DNA of 64,000 nucleotides. It comes from Arthrobacter sp. ERGS1:01. GTDB taxonomy: Bacteria; Actinomycetota; Actinomycetes; Actinomycetales; Micrococcaceae. The position numbers and the translations under genes are program-made. The stretch is taken from positions 2,790,001 to 2,854,000 of the forward strand of contig NZ_CP012479.1 in NCBI RefSeq assembly GCF_001281315.1, written 5' to 3'. This document shows, one piece after another, positions 2,866-48,019 of the stretch. The first letter of the stretch is position 1, and each line of letters begins with the position of its first letter. Under the pieces are notes generated by a model. The model made no database searches and had not been told where the DNA came from. It worked only from the letters and a program-made list of their open reading frames with translations.

Positions 2866-3522
2866 CTACCGGACGGGCACGATCCTCGCGCAGCAGTGGG
2901 AGGCATCCGGATCGGGTTCGATGCTGTGGGCGGTGTCGCTGCAGCCGGCCAGGGCGCCGTTGAGCAGGGCTCCGTTGAGGGCGCACACCACGCCTGTGTG
3001 TTCCTGGGCCAGCCGGTGGAACGGGCAGTTGGCCATGATGATGCCGCCGGCGCCGTCGGGCCTGGGGTCGTAGCCGGTGTCGGCCAGGACGTGCCCGATG
3101 CTGCCGGCCTCGGCACCCAGGGATTGGCCGGCGTCGAACGCCACGGCGGCGAGCGCGTCCTCCACACCTTCGGAAGTATCGATGGAGCGTTGCACGGCGG
3201 CGGCCAGCAGTTGGGCGGCGAGGTCGTAGTGGCGGGCGGGCACGGAAGCGCCCACCTCGGCGATGGCCACGGTGTACAGCTTGGTGGGCCGGCCGGAGCC
3301 AGGCCCCGTGCGGTCCCCCACCTTGCGGAATTCGACGTGGAGCAGCTTCTCCGCCTCGAGCCGGTCAAGGTGTGTCCGGATGGTGCTTTTGGGCAGGCCC
3401 AGGGCTGCGGCGCAGTCGTCCCGGCTCAGCGGGTCCGGGGCCTTGCGCAGCAGCTCAAAGATCTGTTTGCGCACCGGATCGCCCAACGACGCGACGGCGC
3501 GGAGCCGTTCCGCCTCATTCAT
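2866..3522 (-). CDS. ArsR-type winged-helix regulator with cysteine-rich C-terminus (COG2345, SufR-like)
   Basis: DNA-binding protein of 218 residues. The ATG at 3522 follows GGAGGCACC; an upstream in-frame ATG at 3684 would add 54 non-conserved residues. Residues about 5-80 form the winged helix (GDPVRKQIFELLRKA, then LGLPKSTIRTHLDRLEAE). The C-terminal part has NCPFHRLAQEH, then GVVCALNGALL, then HCCARIVPV at the end. This cysteine pattern is typical of COG2345 regulators, some of which (SufR) bind an Fe-S cluster. It is divergent from folE across 149 bases holding a palindrome, so it probably controls the pterin operon. Fe-S sensing is inference; an ordinary ArsR/PadR-like regulator is the alternative. 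Confidence 0.85.
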   Translation of the reverse strand: MNEAERLRAVASLGDPVRKQIFELLRKAPDPLSRDDCAAALGLPKSTIRTHLDRLEAEKLLHVEFRKVGDRTGPGSGRPTKLYTVAIAEVGASVPARHYDLAAQLLAAAVQRSIDTSEGVEDALAAVAFDAGQSLGAEAGSIGHVLADTGYDPRPDGAGGIIMANCPFHRLAQEHTGVVCALNGALLNGALAGCSDTAHSIEPDPDASHCCARIVPVR

Positions 3523-3612
3523 GGTGCCTCCAGTTCCGGGTTTGCTTCGCGGCTTCCCACACCGGGTGCGGCGGGTTTCGGGAAGCGATGTTTTGGATTG
3601 TGTCGCATTGTC

Positions 3613-3663
3613 TTGACGCCTTGAGTCTGCCCTTCTAAAGTCAAAAATACAAGATTTAGAAAG
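3613..3663 (+). promoter_or_regulatory. Promoter with overlapping palindromic operator for the folE operon
   Basis: TTGACG (3613-3618), a 17-base spacer and TAAAGT (3636-3641) make a plausible sigma-70-type promoter facing folE. An inverted repeat TTCTAAA (3633-3639) / TTTAGAA (3655-3661), 15-base spacer, covers the -10 box and start-point region, where a repressor would act. The AT-rich patch contrasts with the surrounding GC-rich DNA. The divergent regulator at 2866-3522 is the natural ligand; this pairing is inferred. Confidence 0.55.
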
Positions 3664-3671
3664 GTTGGGAC

Positions 3672-4286
3672 ATGTCGATCTCAAGCGCCGCCCTCCCCAG
3701 TCTGCTCGCCTATGAGGATCCCTCCGACGACGAGCCGGCTACCTCGCCCGGGATCGACCTGCCGGCCGCGCAGGCCGCGATCGCCGATTTCCTGCGCGCC
3801 CTGGGCCGCGACGTGGACAACCCCCACCTGCTGGATACGCCACGGCGCGTGGCCGCCGCCTACGCCGAAATGCTGACCCCGCGGGAAACCAGCTGGACCA
3901 CTTTCCCCAACGATGAGGGTTATGCGGGCCTGGTGCTGGTCAAGGACGTGCCGTTCAACTCCCTGTGCCAGCACCACCTGCTGCCGTTCCGCGGCGTGGC
4001 ACATGTGGGCTACCTCCCGGGTGAGCGGCTGTTCGGGCTGTCGAAGCTGGCCCGCGGCGTGGAGCTCTTTGCCCGTGACCTGCAGGTCCAGGAACGCCTG
4101 ACCCAGCAAGTGGCAGACTGGCTGGAGGAGACGCTGTCACCGCGCGGCGTCGGCGTCGTACTGGAGGCCGAGCACATGTGCATGTCATTGCGTGGGGTGC
4201 AGGCGGCCGGCACGTCCACCCGCACCTCGGTCTTCACCGGCGCCCTGGCCGGTGCCGGCCCGCTGCGGGACCAGTTCCCGGGCTAA
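3672..4286 (+). CDS. folE: GTP cyclohydrolase I
   Basis: Converts GTP to 7,8-dihydroneopterin triphosphate, the entry step to folate and other pterins; a cytoplasmic zinc enzyme. The 204 residues match the normal family length. Zinc ligands are Cys99 and His102 in SLCQHHLLPF and Cys170 in EHMCMSLRGV; LLDTPRRVAAAY and GLSKLARGVE are also family hallmarks. The N-terminal 30 residues are acidic and variable. The gene opens an operon with a reductase, a FolP2-like protein and a RibD-like reductase, not with folB, folK and canonical folP. It could therefore be a second, specialised cyclohydrolase; whether a housekeeping folE exists elsewhere cannot be seen. Confidence 0.95.
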   Translation: MSISSAALPSLLAYEDPSDDEPATSPGIDLPAAQAAIADFLRALGRDVDNPHLLDTPRRVAAAYAEMLTPRETSWTTFPNDEGYAGLVLVKDVPFNSLCQHHLLPFRGVAHVGYLPGERLFGLSKLARGVELFARDLQVQERLTQQVADWLEETLSPRGVGVVLEAEHMCMSLRGVQAAGTSTRTSVFTGALAGAGPLRDQFPG

Positions 4287-4373
4287 GGCTCCGAAGCGGC
4301 CCTTCCACCCACCCCAACCCCAGGCAGTCGTTCCTCCCAAGAAACAGTCATTTCCACGGAAAGAGTTTCGATC

Positions 4374-5648
4374 ATGAGCGAGTCAAACAGCGCAGCAACC
4401 CCCACCGGCGCCGACACCAGTAGTGCCGATGCGGGCATGGTGATCATTGGCGGGGGTCTGGCCGGCGCCACCGCCGCCGACACCCTCCGCGCCGAAGGCT
4501 ACACGGGCCCGGTGACGATCGTGGCGGAGGAGCCGGAGATCCCGTACCAGCGCCCGCCTCTGTCCAAGGGTTTCCTGGCCGGCAAGGAGGGCGACGACGC
4601 CCTGCTCCCCTACCCCGCAAGTTGGTACCCCGAACACGACGTCACGGTCCGCACCGGCACGGCTGCCACCGCGATCGACCCCGCCGCCCACGCCGTGAGC
4701 CTGTCCGACGGCTCGGTGCTGCCGTATGCGAAGCTGCTCATTGCCACGGGCGCCTTACCGCGGGTGATCCCCTTCCCCGGCGTGGAGCTCGACGGCGTCC
4801 ACTACTTCCGCTCGAAGGCCGACGCCGTGGCCATGAAGGAGCTGCTGTCCGCCGGCGGCCACAACCTGGTCATGATCGGCTCCGGCTGGATCGGCATGGA
4901 AATTGCCGCCACCGCCCGCGAGCTTGGCAACAACGTGACCCTGCTGGGCCTGGAGGACGTGCCGCTCTCGGTGGCCATCGGCAAGGAACTCGGCGCGGTC
5001 TTTGCCGCCCGCCATGAGGAGGCCGGGGTGCGGTTTGTGCTGCCGGCGAGCGCCGCGGAAATCAAGGGCGACGCCGGCCGGGTCACCGGAGTCGTGACGA
5101 CCACCGGCGTCACGCTGCCCGCGGACCTGGTGATCGTGGCCGTCGGGGTGGTGCCGAACATCGCGCTGGCCAAGGAGGCCGGCCTGGCCATCGACAACGG
5201 CATCCAGGTCTCCGGCAGCCTGCAAAGCTCCGATCCCGACATCTTCGCCGCCGGCGACGTGGCCAACTCGCTGCACCCCGTCACCGGCGCCTATGCCCGC
5301 TCCGAACACTGGGCCAACGCGATCGCCGCCGGCAAGGTGGCCGCCAGGTCCATGCTGGGCCGGGACGCGGTGCTCGATGACATCCCCTACTTTTACACCG
5401 ACCAGTTTGACCTGGGCATGGAGTACTCCGGCTACGGCGCACTGACCAGGGACGCCGAACTGGTGGTCCGCGGCAGCCTGGAGAAACGCGAGTTCATCGC
5501 GTTCTGGGTGCTCGAAGGCCGCGTTGTGGCCGGCATGAACGTGAACATCTGGGACGTGCAGGACGCCATCAAGGAGCTGATCGGCTCCGGCCGCACGGTC
5601 GACACGCAGGCGCTGGCTGACCCGCAAATCCCGCTCGAGGCTATTTGA
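4374..5648 (+). CDS. FAD-dependent pyridine-nucleotide reductase (ferredoxin/rubredoxin reductase type)
   Basis: Flavoprotein of 424 residues passing electrons from NAD(P)H to a small redox partner or acting as an oxidoreductase itself. The FAD-binding motif MVIIGGGLAGATAA is at about residues 22-35, then PYQRPPLSKGFL; the NAD(P)H motif MIGSGWIGMEIA lies near 165, and the second FAD motif DIFAAGDVA near 290. The C-terminal domain (YFYTDQFDLGMEYSGY) is the reductase C-domain of the BphA4/AIF-like group. There is no redox-active CxxC pair, so it is not a thioredoxin- or mercuric-reductase-like enzyme. It lies 87 bases after folE and overlaps the next gene by one base. It may supply reducing power for a pterin-dependent step; no ferredoxin gene is adjacent. 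Confidence 0.9.
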   Translation: MSESNSAATPTGADTSSADAGMVIIGGGLAGATAADTLRAEGYTGPVTIVAEEPEIPYQRPPLSKGFLAGKEGDDALLPYPASWYPEHDVTVRTGTAATAIDPAAHAVSLSDGSVLPYAKLLIATGALPRVIPFPGVELDGVHYFRSKADAVAMKELLSAGGHNLVMIGSGWIGMEIAATARELGNNVTLLGLEDVPLSVAIGKELGAVFAARHEEAGVRFVLPASAAEIKGDAGRVTGVVTTTGVTLPADLVIVAVGVVPNIALAKEAGLAIDNGIQVSGSLQSSDPDIFAAGDVANSLHPVTGAYARSEHWANAIAAGKVAARSMLGRDAVLDDIPYFYTDQFDLGMEYSGYGALTRDAELVVRGSLEKREFIAFWVLEGRVVAGMNVNIWDVQDAIKELIGSGRTVDTQALADPQIPLEAI

Positions 5649-6613
5649 TGGTGGAGATGACTACTTTCGAGCCGGCCCGCACCGCCCACGGATCGGCGGC
5701 GCCCTTCTACACGCCGCCCCTGCTGCACCCCGTGCACCAGTTCGGCACCCGGACGCTGGACTTCAGCCGCCAGGTGGCGTTGATGGCCATCGTGAACCGG
5801 ACCCCCGACTCCTTTTACGACGGCGGCGCCACCTTTGCGCTGGACGCGGCGGTTGCCGCCTCGCTGGCCGCCGTGGACGGCGGCGCCGACTGGGTCGACA
5901 TTGGCGGCGTCCCCTTCGCGCCGGGCCCGGCCCTGAGCGCCGCAGAGGAGGGCGACCGCGTAGTGCCCGTCATTGAGGCGGTGTCGGCCGCCAGCGACGT
6001 CATCATCTCGGTCGACACCTTCCTGCCCGAGGTTGCGGCGCGCAGCATCGCCGCCGGTGCCCATGTCATCAACGACACGACGGGGCTCGCCAACCCGGAG
6101 CTGGCCGCCGTCGTCGCCGAGACCGGCGCCCACCTGGTCATCACCCATTCGCTGGCCCGGCCACGCACCGTCTACCCCCGCCCCAGCTACGGCGACGTCG
6201 CCGCCGAGGTGGCCGCGTTCCTGGCCGAGAAGGTGGAACTTGCATTGTCGCTGGGCGTCCCGGCCGAGAAGATCATCGTGGACCCCGGCCACGACCTGAA
6301 CAAGAACACGCTGCACACGCTGGAGATCACCCGGCGTTTCAACGAGTTCGCCGCCCTGGGCTTTCCCGCGCTGGCCGCCGTGTCGAACAAGGACTTCATC
6401 GGCGAAACCCTCGATCAGGACAAGGCGCAGCGGCTGGAGGGTTCGCTGGCCACGGGCGTCATCTGCATCCTCGGCGGCGCCCGGATCCTGCGCATGCACA
6501 ATGTGGCCTCTGCCAGCTCCGCCATCCGCATGACCGAGGCCGTGCTGGGCTGGCGGGAACCGGCATACCTGCGCCACAACATGGGCGACGTCAACCAGCC
6601 CGCCCACCGCTGA
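5648..6613 (+). CDS. FolP2-type dihydropteroate synthase paralogue
   Basis: TIM-barrel protein of 321 residues in the dihydropteroate synthase superfamily. The start is the ATG in TGATG, overlapping the upstream stop, which implies translational coupling. Retained signatures are MAIVNRTPDSFYDGG, IISVDTF, HVINDTTG, SNKDFIGET and GGARILRMHNV. Lost relative to true FolP are the pABA loop GESTRPG (here DIGGVPFAPGP), the MH.+G segment (ITHSLARPRT) and SRKSFIG. The same pattern (NRTPDSFYD, VGG, SNKD) marks mycobacterial FolP2, which as far as I know lacks dihydropteroate synthase activity. Pterin binding is likely; the second substrate is unknown. It is unlikely to be the housekeeping FolP. Confidence 0.88.
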   Translation: MVEMTTFEPARTAHGSAAPFYTPPLLHPVHQFGTRTLDFSRQVALMAIVNRTPDSFYDGGATFALDAAVAASLAAVDGGADWVDIGGVPFAPGPALSAAEEGDRVVPVIEAVSAASDVIISVDTFLPEVAARSIAAGAHVINDTTGLANPELAAVVAETGAHLVITHSLARPRTVYPRPSYGDVAAEVAAFLAEKVELALSLGVPAEKIIVDPGHDLNKNTLHTLEITRRFNEFAALGFPALAAVSNKDFIGETLDQDKAQRLEGSLATGVICILGGARILRMHNVASASSAIRMTEAVLGWREPAYLRHNMGDVNQPAHR

Positions 6614-6633
6614 CGCTTCACGAAGAGGACGCC

Positions 6634-7422
6634 ATGATTGAACGGATCTTCCCCGAGTCCGGCCTGTCCGGGCAGGCGCTCGACGACGACCTCCTCGCCG
6701 CGCCCTTCACGGCCCCCGGCAGCAAGACGTGGGTCAGCTTCAACTTTGTCTCGAGCATTGACGGGGCGGCAACCGTCGACGGGCGTTCGGGCGCGTTGGG
6801 CAACGCCGACGACCAGCACTTTTTCCAACTGATGCGCCGGAACGCCGACGTGATCCTGGTGGGCGCCCAAACAGTCCGGTCCGAAGGCTACGGCGGGGAG
6901 CTGCTCAGCCCCGAGGCGCAGGCGTGGCGGGCCGATCGCGGCCTGCCCGTCCACCCGCCGCTGGCCATCGTGTCCGGCTCGCTCAACCTCGACCCCACCC
7001 TCGAGGTGTTCACCGACGCCCCCGTGCGCCCCCTGGTCATCACGACGGCTGCGGCACCGCCGGTCCGCCGGGCCGCGTTAGCCGCCGTGGCCGACGTCGT
7101 GGACGCCGGCGCGGACACGCTGGATGCGGGCGCGCTTCTGGCCGGACTTGCGGGCAGGGGCCTGCACCGGGTCCATTCCGAGGGCGGACCCACCGTGCTG
7201 GGCACCTTCGCGGCCGCGGACAAGGTGGATGAACTGTGCCTGACGGTGTCGCCCCTGCTGGTGGGCGGGACCGCGAAGCGCATCGCCGACGTCCTGCCGG
7301 GCGGAGACGGCGAGGGTGCCGGGCCGCGTGCCATGACGCTGGCCCAAATCCACAAGGCCGGGTCCATGCTGTTCCTGCGTTACGTCCGGGACACCGGGCC
7401 GAGCGAGGGTCCGAAAGTCTAA
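6634..7422 (+). CDS. RibD C-terminal-domain reductase (pyrimidine reductase / DHFR-like fold)
   Basis: NADPH-dependent reductase of 262 residues with the dihydrofolate-reductase-like fold of the RibD reductase domain. Visible signatures are WVSFNFVSSIDGAATVDG, the segment NADVILVGAQTVRSEGYG, LAIVSGSLNLDP, and the nucleotide-binding GLHRVHSEGGPTVLGTF. The deaminase domain of bifunctional RibD is absent. A mycobacterial RibD-like relative (Rv2671) can reduce dihydrofolate, so a dihydropterin substrate is plausible here. It lies 20 bases after the folP2-like gene with the ribosome site GAAGAGGA, and is the last gene of the operon. Its stop overlaps that of the convergent lipoprotein gene by four bases. 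Confidence 0.87.
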   Translation: MIERIFPESGLSGQALDDDLLAAPFTAPGSKTWVSFNFVSSIDGAATVDGRSGALGNADDQHFFQLMRRNADVILVGAQTVRSEGYGGELLSPEAQAWRADRGLPVHPPLAIVSGSLNLDPTLEVFTDAPVRPLVITTAAAPPVRRAALAAVADVVDAGADTLDAGALLAGLAGRGLHRVHSEGGPTVLGTFAAADKVDELCLTVSPLLVGGTAKRIADVLPGGDGEGAGPRAMTLAQIHKAGSMLFLRYVRDTGPSEGPKV

Positions 7423-11617: not shown

Positions 11618-11671
11618 AAAAGGGTCTCGACGGGCTCGACCACCGGTGGTCGAGCCCGTCGAGACCCTTTT
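11618..11671. terminator. Perfect 54-base palindrome shared by converging genes (inverted family-A pair)
   Basis: Positions 11618-11644 and 11645-11671 are exact reverse complements with no spacer. Four A's begin the left arm and four T's end the right arm, so either strand can form a hairpin followed by a short U-run. Each arm is a family-A repeat (GGTCTCGACGGGCTCGACCA). It starts 4 bases after the methyltransferase stop and ends 5 bases from the etfA stop. Confidence 0.9.
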
Positions 11672-47721: not shown

Positions 47722-48019
47722 CGGGTCTCGACAGGCTCGACCACCGAATACGGCCGGGCCTCGACAGGCTCGACCACCGAATACGGCCGGGCCCCGACAG
47801 GCTCGACCACCGAATACGGCCGGGTCTCGACAGGCTCGACCACCGGATACGGCCGGGTCTCGACAGGCTCGACCACCGAATACGGCCGGGCCTCGACAGG
47901 CTCGACCACCGGATACGGCCGGGTCTCGACAGGCTCGACCACCGAATACGGCCGGGTCTCGACAGGCTCGACCACCGGATACGGCCGGGTCTCGACAGGC
48001 TCGACCACCGAATGCGGAA
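47722..48019. repeat. Tandem array of nine 33-bp family-A units
   Basis: Nine head-to-tail units of 33 bases, each containing CTCGACAGGCTCGACCACCG followed by a GAATACGGC- or GGATACGGC-type spacer. Units differ at two or three positions only, alternating in the later part between GAATAC and GGATAC. There are no unique spacers. All copies are in the same direction, unlike the inverted arrangement at 11.6 and 27.9 kb. The array lies between the tRNA-fMet gene and the UPF0182 terminator. Confidence 0.95.

Follow-up and report, generated by a model that had tools for sequence, protein, structure and literature searches.

A putative operator joins a second pterin-type operon of Arthrobacter sp. 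ERGS1:01 to an unlinked DoxX-like gene: a possible non-folate role for FolP2

One question raised by positions 2866-7422 of a 64,000-nucleotide stretch of Arthrobacter sp. ERGS1:01 (contig NZ_CP012479.1, positions 2,790,001 to 2,854,000 of the forward strand; hereafter the window) is which pterin is made there, and under which control. Four co-directional genes, folE, FNR, folP2 and ribDC, form one tightly spaced unit in this locus, and the gene of a regulator (REG) is divergent from them; the ATG of folP2 (5648) overlaps the stop codon of FNR as TGATG. A preliminary description, made from the letters alone, had interpreted the region as a non-canonical pterin operon under a SufR-like regulator. 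The five genes were found where it had placed them. The features are the following (window coordinates):

2866-3522, minus strand: REG, ArsR-type winged-helix regulator with a C-terminal Cys domain (NCPFH, C-X13-C-X29-CC); Pfam HTH_20/HTH_5
3613-3641, plus strand: candidate sigma-70 promoter of folE, TTGACG (3613-3618), 17-bp spacer, TAAAGT (3636-3641); predicted by eye
3633-3661, no strand: putative operator TTCTAAA-N15-TTTAGAA, perfect inverted repeat over the folE -10 box; pattern search
3672-4286, plus strand: FolE, second GTP cyclohydrolase I, REG-associated type; PF01227, 193.6 bits
4374-5648, plus strand: FNR, FAD/NAD(P)H reductase of the putidaredoxin-reductase/BphA4 type; Pyr_redox_2 and Reductase_C
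5648-6613, plus strand: FolP2, dihydropteroate-synthase-fold enzyme, Rv1207 type; TIGR01496, 250 bits; PDB 2vp8
6634-7422, plus strand: RibD_C reductase, Rv2671 type (family of functional analogues of dihydrofolate reductase); PF01872; PDB 4xrb

The inverted repeat at 3633-3661 was the sole match to its pattern when up to 2 mismatches were allowed across the window (0 expected). A search of 23 genomes of the genus (two sets, 12 + 11), allowing ≤1 mismatch, located the site at the folE operon in 23/23; it was viewed before folE in 14 genomes, and in the other 9 its position, some 2 kb upstream of folP2, was taken from the coordinates. A second site was detected in 16/23 genomes, and in 16/16 it lay just upstream of a gene for a DoxX-like membrane protein. 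In strain ERGS1:01 this gene (C1:366096-366581, minus strand) is unlinked to the operon and preceded by the operator. At two loci from Microbacteriaceae, one of Homoserinimonas (L164) and one of a metagenome-assembled genome (L159), DoxX is encoded within the operon itself, in the arrangement REG < > DoxX-FolE-(FNR)-FolP2-RibD_C. The strongest single result of this analysis is that the DoxX family marked by the predicted operator is the one that is found inside the operon elsewhere. On this sequence evidence, the regulon, with REG beside a repeat that precedes both folE-FNR-folP2-ribDC and the unlinked DoxX-like gene, is very probably real. The operator sites of the genus amounted to 40, one of which (in G002) was unexplained. 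The preliminary description had overlooked the operator, which lies within the coordinates that it covered, the DoxX-like member of the regulon and the two-module structure proposed below.

Two sites were also present in G029, a genome from another genus of the same family, one before FNR-FolP2-RibD_C and the other before the DoxX gene. In the genus g10, sites were found between REG and DoxX in G031, G058, G187 and G215, and before an FNR homologue (57-61% identity) in G031, G117 and G187. Neither the 6 outgroup genomes of the order nor G028 contained an operator site, and the reversed control pattern had no site in the 13 non-genus genomes searched. Three sites with one mismatch lacked a recognised target. 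Two of them, G002:C1:997815 (not read) and G031:C12:132545, are possible extra members of the regulon; the third, G117:C1:2898032, is close to an ftsE-like gene and could be a chance match.

The regulator has four cysteines, spaced C-X13-C-X29-CC, and its N-C-P-F-H, C and CC were invariant in 11 homologues. In the AlphaFold2 model of REG (mean predicted local distance difference test score, pLDDT, 82.7) the helix-turn-helix (HTH) part resembled ArsR structures, and no convincing match to the C-terminal part was found among the 50 PDB matches listed. REG and SufR are alike in combining an HTH with a C-terminal Cys region. Membership in the SufR family, as the term 'SufR-like' had implied, was not borne out, for the score with TIGR02702 was far under the cut-off (15.3 against 178.8 bits) and came only from residues 19-107, outside the Cys region; the cysteine spacing also differs from what we take to be the SufR pattern. 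We infer that REG may sense by oxidation, nitrosylation or an Fe-S group, and that the operon may be under iron, redox or nitrosative control, as the preliminary description had proposed.

The organisation of the regulon across the order was assessed in a sample of 297 genomes, with the DoxX-like protein and the five window proteins as tblastn queries. Gene calls were crude (longest frame with GC-position bias), and the cut-offs were E≤1e-42 for FolP2 and E≤1e-22 for the RibD_C type; FolP2 counts at this cut-off contain some weak matches, possibly housekeeping FolP, and co-occurrence counts take no account of relatedness. The DoxX-like protein was found in 21/297 genomes and REG in 25/297, with both in 14. 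DoxX and/or FolE lay divergently beside REG in 20 of the 25 REG genomes: the divergent genes were FolE-FNR in 8, DoxX in 7, DoxX-FNR in 1, DoxX-FolE with or without FNR in 4 and neither in 5. In the last five (G117, G225, G050, G143 and G306) no DoxX or FolE was present in the stretch read, and in G117 the operator and an FNR homologue lay beyond the gene next to REG. FolE adjoined REG in 12 genomes (six of them from two genera), all 12 of which have FolP2 and RibD_C, at another place in the genome in 6/12. Among the 13 REG genomes without an adjoining FolE, FolP2 was found in 6 and RibD_C in 4.

The DoxX-like protein of strain ERGS1:01 had no match to PF07681 at E≤1 and only one to PF05915, at 0.12, and the L164 copy reached 19.2 bits with PF07681 (cut-off 23.6); some of the 120 homologues listed carry PF07681 or name DoxX. 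Its model (pLDDT 81.3) is a helical bundle with NACHO/TMEM35A as best PDB match (E 0.041, TM 0.66), and D43, K44, E79, D116, R120 and D121 were invariant in 24 homologues. Five genomes of the family f6 (L250, L251, L252, L255 and L259) were seen by eye to carry a DoxX-like gene near a gene resembling those of extracytoplasmic function (ECF) sigma factors; three of them have a small CDEC-type anti-sigma-like gene too, and no REG was seen in the stretch read.

Conservation of the operon itself was clear within the genus. FolE-FNR-FolP2-RibD_C was kept in the same order and strand in 22/22 other genomes, with FolP2 83-89% identical; in one of them, G005, a stop and ambiguous bases occur within the FolP2 stretch. 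REG was divergent beside it in all 12 of these 22 congeners that were read that far. The operon is not a chance arrangement, because it is kept in 22/22 congeners, and the possibility raised in advance that gene order would be lost in relatives did not materialise.

The other possibility raised beforehand, that no further folE or folP would exist in the genome, was likewise dispelled by a separate folE-folP-folB-folK cluster at about 168.8-171.3 kb of G000:C1 (FolB and HPPK by Pfam). This cluster holds the FolB and FolK genes that the operon was correctly said to lack, and it rules out the operon as the housekeeping folate cluster. The window thus carries a second pterin-type operon apart from the housekeeping one, as first supposed, and two FolP-type matches were present in each of 22 congeners. 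A folA gene lies at C3:3316494 (PF00186 matches were obtained in 36/38 genomes searched), which rules out RibD_C as the sole dihydrofolate reductase (DHFR). The frame of the housekeeping folP (L023, about 5424-6373; G000:C1) is broken near its start, and the conserved first motif has no upstream in-frame start; this interruption may be genuine or an assembly error.

Farther from the genus, the FolP2-RibD_C pair recurs. In the order sample FolP2 was found in 127/297 genomes, the RibD_C type in 108 and both in 94, uncorrected for relatedness. RibD_C lay immediately downstream for 39/56 FolP2 tblastn matches at ≥53% identity, to which G046 adds a partial one, and it lay downstream at 45/79 order loci that had been selected by FolP2 score and not at random. 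Among the named FolP2 loci (the best 80 of at least 593 confirmed in one genome-contig scan), a same-strand RibD_C followed in 62/80, with FNR upstream in 20/80, FolE upstream, with or without FNR between, in 18/80 and a divergent REG in 11/80. The pair is present even at a locus from another class (L120), where RibD_C is only about 30% identical, and by eye it sits in differing chromosomal neighbourhoods across families. We take the neighbours in distant actinobacteria, named by eye, to be dapE, LOG, fadD6, gpgS and tagA-like genes; no pterin link emerged from these neighbourhoods. FolP2-RibD_C and REG-DoxX-FNR-FolE are, by gene order, two separable modules.

FolP2 lies directly behind paaC-paaD-paaE in L034 and L035 (family f5; PaaD by eye) and behind paaC-paaD and an alpha/beta hydrolase gene in L115, from a distant family (PaaD and hydrolase by eye), and genes like that of 4-hydroxyphenylpyruvate dioxygenase (HPPD) occur within about 4 kb of FolP2 in L112 and L119 (TIGR01263, 438 bits in L119). 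As judged from these loci, the association is real, is confined to few families and is kept as a lead. In the order sample, FolP2 was found in 17 of the 18 genomes matching PF00351 and the RibD_C type in 8 of them.

The origin of the FolE copies was analysed in a tree of 44 of the 47 rows offered (29/31 operon-type and 15/16 housekeeping), three rows having been lost to the length or match filter; the tree carries a warning of long branches meeting. The window FolE fell in a clade of 23 rows with support 100/98, apart from 14/15 housekeeping FolE, and L210 was the only row of this clade described as without REG alongside. FolE proteins encoded beside FolP2 in Curtobacterium, Frigoribacterium and Glaciihabitans fell in another group, which includes 1/15 housekeeping rows and, given its long branches, is less sure. 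The FolE found next to FolP2 would thus derive from at least two FolE lineages. Such repeated recruitment of FolE argues that FolP2 works downstream of GTP cyclohydrolase I.

By domain scores, the window FolE is a GTP cyclohydrolase I (193.6 bits with PF01227, cut-off 27); it passed the cut-offs of NF006826 and NF006825 and stayed below those of TIGR00063 (167.3 of 181.6) and NF006824. C..HH and C are present, presumably as the Cys/His/Cys metal ligands of this enzyme. The top PDB matches of FNR were 3lxd, 1q1r and 3lb8, followed by the BphA4-type 1d7y. The 'RibD-type' reductase of the preliminary description does have a RibD_C domain, and is better read as an Rv2671-type enzyme: its best PDB match was 4xrb (RV2671; E 1.8e-48), and its best NCBIfam matches were the PRK14059 models, all under cut-off (210.1/226, 187.1/274 and 181/184 bits). 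The N, D and E of Rv2671 given as antifolate contacts in PMC10530724 align with N, D and E in RibD_C (numbering shift adjusted by eye).

One further question is whether FolP2 could still act as a dihydropteroate synthase (DHPS). DHPS residues are distinguished by their roles in binding the pterin, the pyrophosphate and, with loop 2, p-aminobenzoic acid (pABA), with T62, R63 and S222 of the E. coli enzyme in the last class. FolP2 exceeded the cut-off of the TIGR01496 equivalog model (250.1 bits; cut-off 162.6), and its best PDB match was 2vp8, 'dihydropteroate synthase 2' (E 3.6e-57). In the alignment, E. coli DHPS N22, D96, N115, D185, K192, K221, R255 and H257 are all retained, whereas loop 2 changes from ESTRPG to VPFAPG (T62 to F, R63 to A), F190 to L and S222 to D, and NV-TPDSF becomes NR-TPDSF. 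The STR of loop 2 was missing from all 39 FolP2 rows aligned and present in the single housekeeping row. N48, D121, N140, D210, K246, R280 and H282 (alignment numbering from 5654) were invariant in 20 FolP2 proteins, and the signature NRTPDSFY..D.GG..DP.HD..K..S.KD, a pattern of our own making without a curated model, is common to FolP2 and 2vp8. Identity to the own copy was higher for FolP2 than for housekeeping FolP in 9 of the 14 genomes compared, for example 77 v 69 in G029, 67 v 57 in G030, 66 v 57 in G032 and 60 v 49 in G055, and barely so in G004. This combination, a constrained enzyme with an altered acceptor site, suggests that FolP2 uses another acceptor rather than having lost its function. 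According to PMC1971073, E. coli folP is not complemented by M. leprae folP2.

The best explanation that can be offered for these results, with a likelihood somewhat below even that does not extend to every step jointly, is repressor-controlled synthesis of a non-folate tetrahydropterin, with FolP2 coupling the pterin to a non-pABA acceptor, RibD_C as reductase of the product and FNR and DoxX as its users. REG would bind the inverted repeat and repress by covering the -10 box, and would be released once its Cys cluster is oxidised, nitrosylated or stripped of a metal or Fe-S group. Extra dihydroneopterin triphosphate would then come from the dedicated FolE and be converted by housekeeping FolB and FolK into 6-hydroxymethyl-dihydropterin pyrophosphate. 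FolP2, having kept the pterin and pyrophosphate residues and lost those of pABA and loop 2, would couple the pterin to a non-pABA acceptor, and the resulting dihydropterin would be reduced to its tetrahydro form by the Rv2671-type RibD_C. FNR and DoxX, which make up the core of the regulon even where FolP2 is missing, would use or recycle reducing power, and the tetrahydropterin would donate electrons or act as a cofactor at the membrane under oxidative or nitrosative stress. A non-pABA acceptor for FolP2 together with RibD_C as its reductase falls just short of an even chance, and for an oxidative or nitrosative inducer the balance is level. The fullest form of the proposal is tentative and, on present evidence, doubtful: an undescribed conjugated tetrahydropterin in Actinobacteria, made by FolP2 joining 6-hydroxymethyl-dihydropterin to a non-pABA acceptor and finished by the Rv2671-type reductase, its supply in this genus being controlled by a Cys-based redox repressor along with FNR and with DoxX, which would use it as an electron donor on the membrane side against oxidants. 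The suggestion in the preliminary description of a pterin other than folate is supported, a reduced one being the likely product.

Several observations weigh against this explanation. The second operator site is absent at ≤1 mismatch from 7/23 genomes of the genus, and 5 sites, in 4/23 genomes (1/12 and 3/11), were obtained with the reversed control pattern, compared with the 40 true ones. The operator is not general, since at ≤2 mismatches it was found at only 7/33 non-genus REG loci, those seven being from genomes of the own family apart from L159 and L164. Upstream FolE is missing from 62/80 and REG from 69/80 of the best 80 named FolP2 loci, and REG-DoxX is present in g10 genomes without a FolP2 match. 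Because the modules separate freely, FolP2 may work in a reaction other than that of REG-DoxX. Identity was lower for FolP2 than for FolP in the remaining 5/14 genomes (87 v 88 in G021, 86 v 91 in G013, 43 v 55 in G036, 40 v 53 in G042 and 40 v 50 in G051), the copies of the last three being a more distant FolP2 type. The operon contains no FolB, FolK or pterin-consuming enzyme. Neither phenylalanine hydroxylase (PF00351) nor nitric oxide synthase (PF02898) was matched in the own genome, and pterin supply for either enzyme there was rejected. FNR resembles ferredoxin reductases; no ferredoxin gene was found within the operon, the rest of the genome not having been searched for one, and an unlinked ferredoxin may be its partner. 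Finally, the break in the housekeeping folP might make a folate role for FolP2 conceivable in this strain.

That break also favours a second, inducible folate pathway, in which an extra FolE, a pABA-using and sulfonamide-insensitive FolP2 and a trimethoprim-insensitive DHFR analogue would sustain folate under antifolates or redox damage. This alternative gains from the TIGR01496 score of FolP2 (250 bits) and from PMC10530724, where the Rv2671 family, to which the reductase belongs, is treated as an additional target of antifolates next to DHFR. We consider it unlikely, however, given the loss of the loop-2 STR in 39/39 rows and the aspartate at S222 in the window, the failure of M. leprae folP2 to complement E. 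coli folP (PMC1971073), the presence of folA in the genome, and operators before the DoxX-like gene and FNR homologues, which would not be expected for a folate supply.

A free tetrahydropterin, such as tetrahydroneopterin or monapterin, acting as antioxidant or cofactor would leave the essential work to FolE and RibD_C, FolP2 being a pterin-binding carrier or a transferase of other chemistry. REG-DoxX-FolE(-FNR) without an adjoining FolP2 in 4/25 REG genomes fits this idea, though all four have FolP2 elsewhere. The occurrence of FolP2 in 17/18 genomes of the order with phenylalanine hydroxylase also fits, yet the hydroxylase genomes cluster in three families, so that the count is not independent, the RibD_C type is found in only 8/18, and the own genome has no PF00351 match. 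The paa genes beside FolP2 (L034, L035 and L115; two families) and the HPPD genes near it (L112 and L119) point the same way as the hydroxylase count. Such a role is nevertheless improbable: FolP2 retains the residues aligned with N22, R255 and H257, and the operon was not seen to contain a gene for FolX, FolM or a PTPS-like protein, no genome-wide search having been made.

A further alternative takes an FNR-DoxX redox system as the functional core, comparable to a flavoprotein and a DoxX-like membrane protein that counter reactive chlorine or thiol stress, with the pterin genes as riders whose only task is to replace folate or pterin that has been oxidised. It is suggested by operators that precede FNR and DoxX where the genome has no FolP2 match, by the ECF-sigma-like genes seen by eye in some f6 genomes and, in PMC7907618, by an H. 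influenzae DoxX-like cluster that answers hypochlorous acid (HOCl) via an ECF sigma factor and an M. tuberculosis DoxX-like protein said to belong to a thiol-oxidoreductase complex. It is nevertheless distinctly improbable, as FolE adjoins REG in 12/25 REG genomes, 12/12 with FolP2 and RibD_C, which a loose rider would not be expected to do, and as the four genes are tightly spaced as one unit in the window.

Comparison with known systems places the preferred explanation, a regulated non-folate tetrahydropterin, near several of them. RclR, RclA and RclC combine a flavoprotein reductase and a DoxX-clan membrane protein under a redox-type regulator. A DoxX-clan membrane protein under redox-type control is likewise a feature of the HOCl-responsive DoxX regulons (PMC7907618). 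Both systems differ from the present one in their flavoprotein and regulator families, and pterin genes occur only here. The proteobacterial tetrahydromonapterin pathway (FolE-FolX-FolM) also leads from GTP cyclohydrolase I and a reductase to a non-folate tetrahydropterin (PMC1971073 and PMC5041015). Here, in contrast, the operon has no FolX or FolM, a FolP-fold enzyme takes the middle place, and an ArsR-type regulator and a DoxX-like protein are involved. The closest solved relative of FolP2 is the Rv1207 type (2vp8), with which it has the NRTPDSFY, IND, DP.HD..K, S.KD and R.H pattern in common; the surroundings differ, folP2 lying here within an operator-preceded folE-FNR-folP2-ribDC operon instead of among the dapE-type neighbours named above. 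Rv2671 (4xrb, 6de5) represents the best-match family of RibD_C, the gene of which neighbours FolP2 in the window.

No account of this operon, of its gene combination or of a FolP2-Rv2671 link was found in the portions of the literature searched. As noted in 2007, folP2 of M. leprae fails to stand in for FolP and has unrelated genes around it (PMC1971073), and the remark in the preliminary description that FolP2 has no settled function was upheld. The FolP2-RibD_C pairing, the REG-associated FolE clade and the predicted operator tying the DoxX-like gene to the operon are new. They bear on a function that has been open since at least 2007, as the FolE and Rv2671-type links point to a reduced pterin and name a likely partner for FolP2, and they define a regulon with a conserved operator, a DoxX-like membrane protein, a reductase and an assayable regulator in a bacterium of soil type. 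If a new tetrahydropterin were confirmed, it would join folate, biopterin, monapterin and methanopterin as a cofactor or redox carrier, and two orphan enzyme families, the Rv1207 and Rv2671 types, which are also present in the tuberculosis bacterium, would gain one shared pathway.

Apart from these genes, the window contains 15 copies of a short repeat, GTCTCGACARGCTCGACCA, counted with ≤1 mismatch, where shuffled sequence led to an expectation of 0. The copies form clusters at 2394-2836, 11624-11665 and 47725-48007, in which they are spaced about 42 and 33 bp apart; one of the clusters lies right behind REG.

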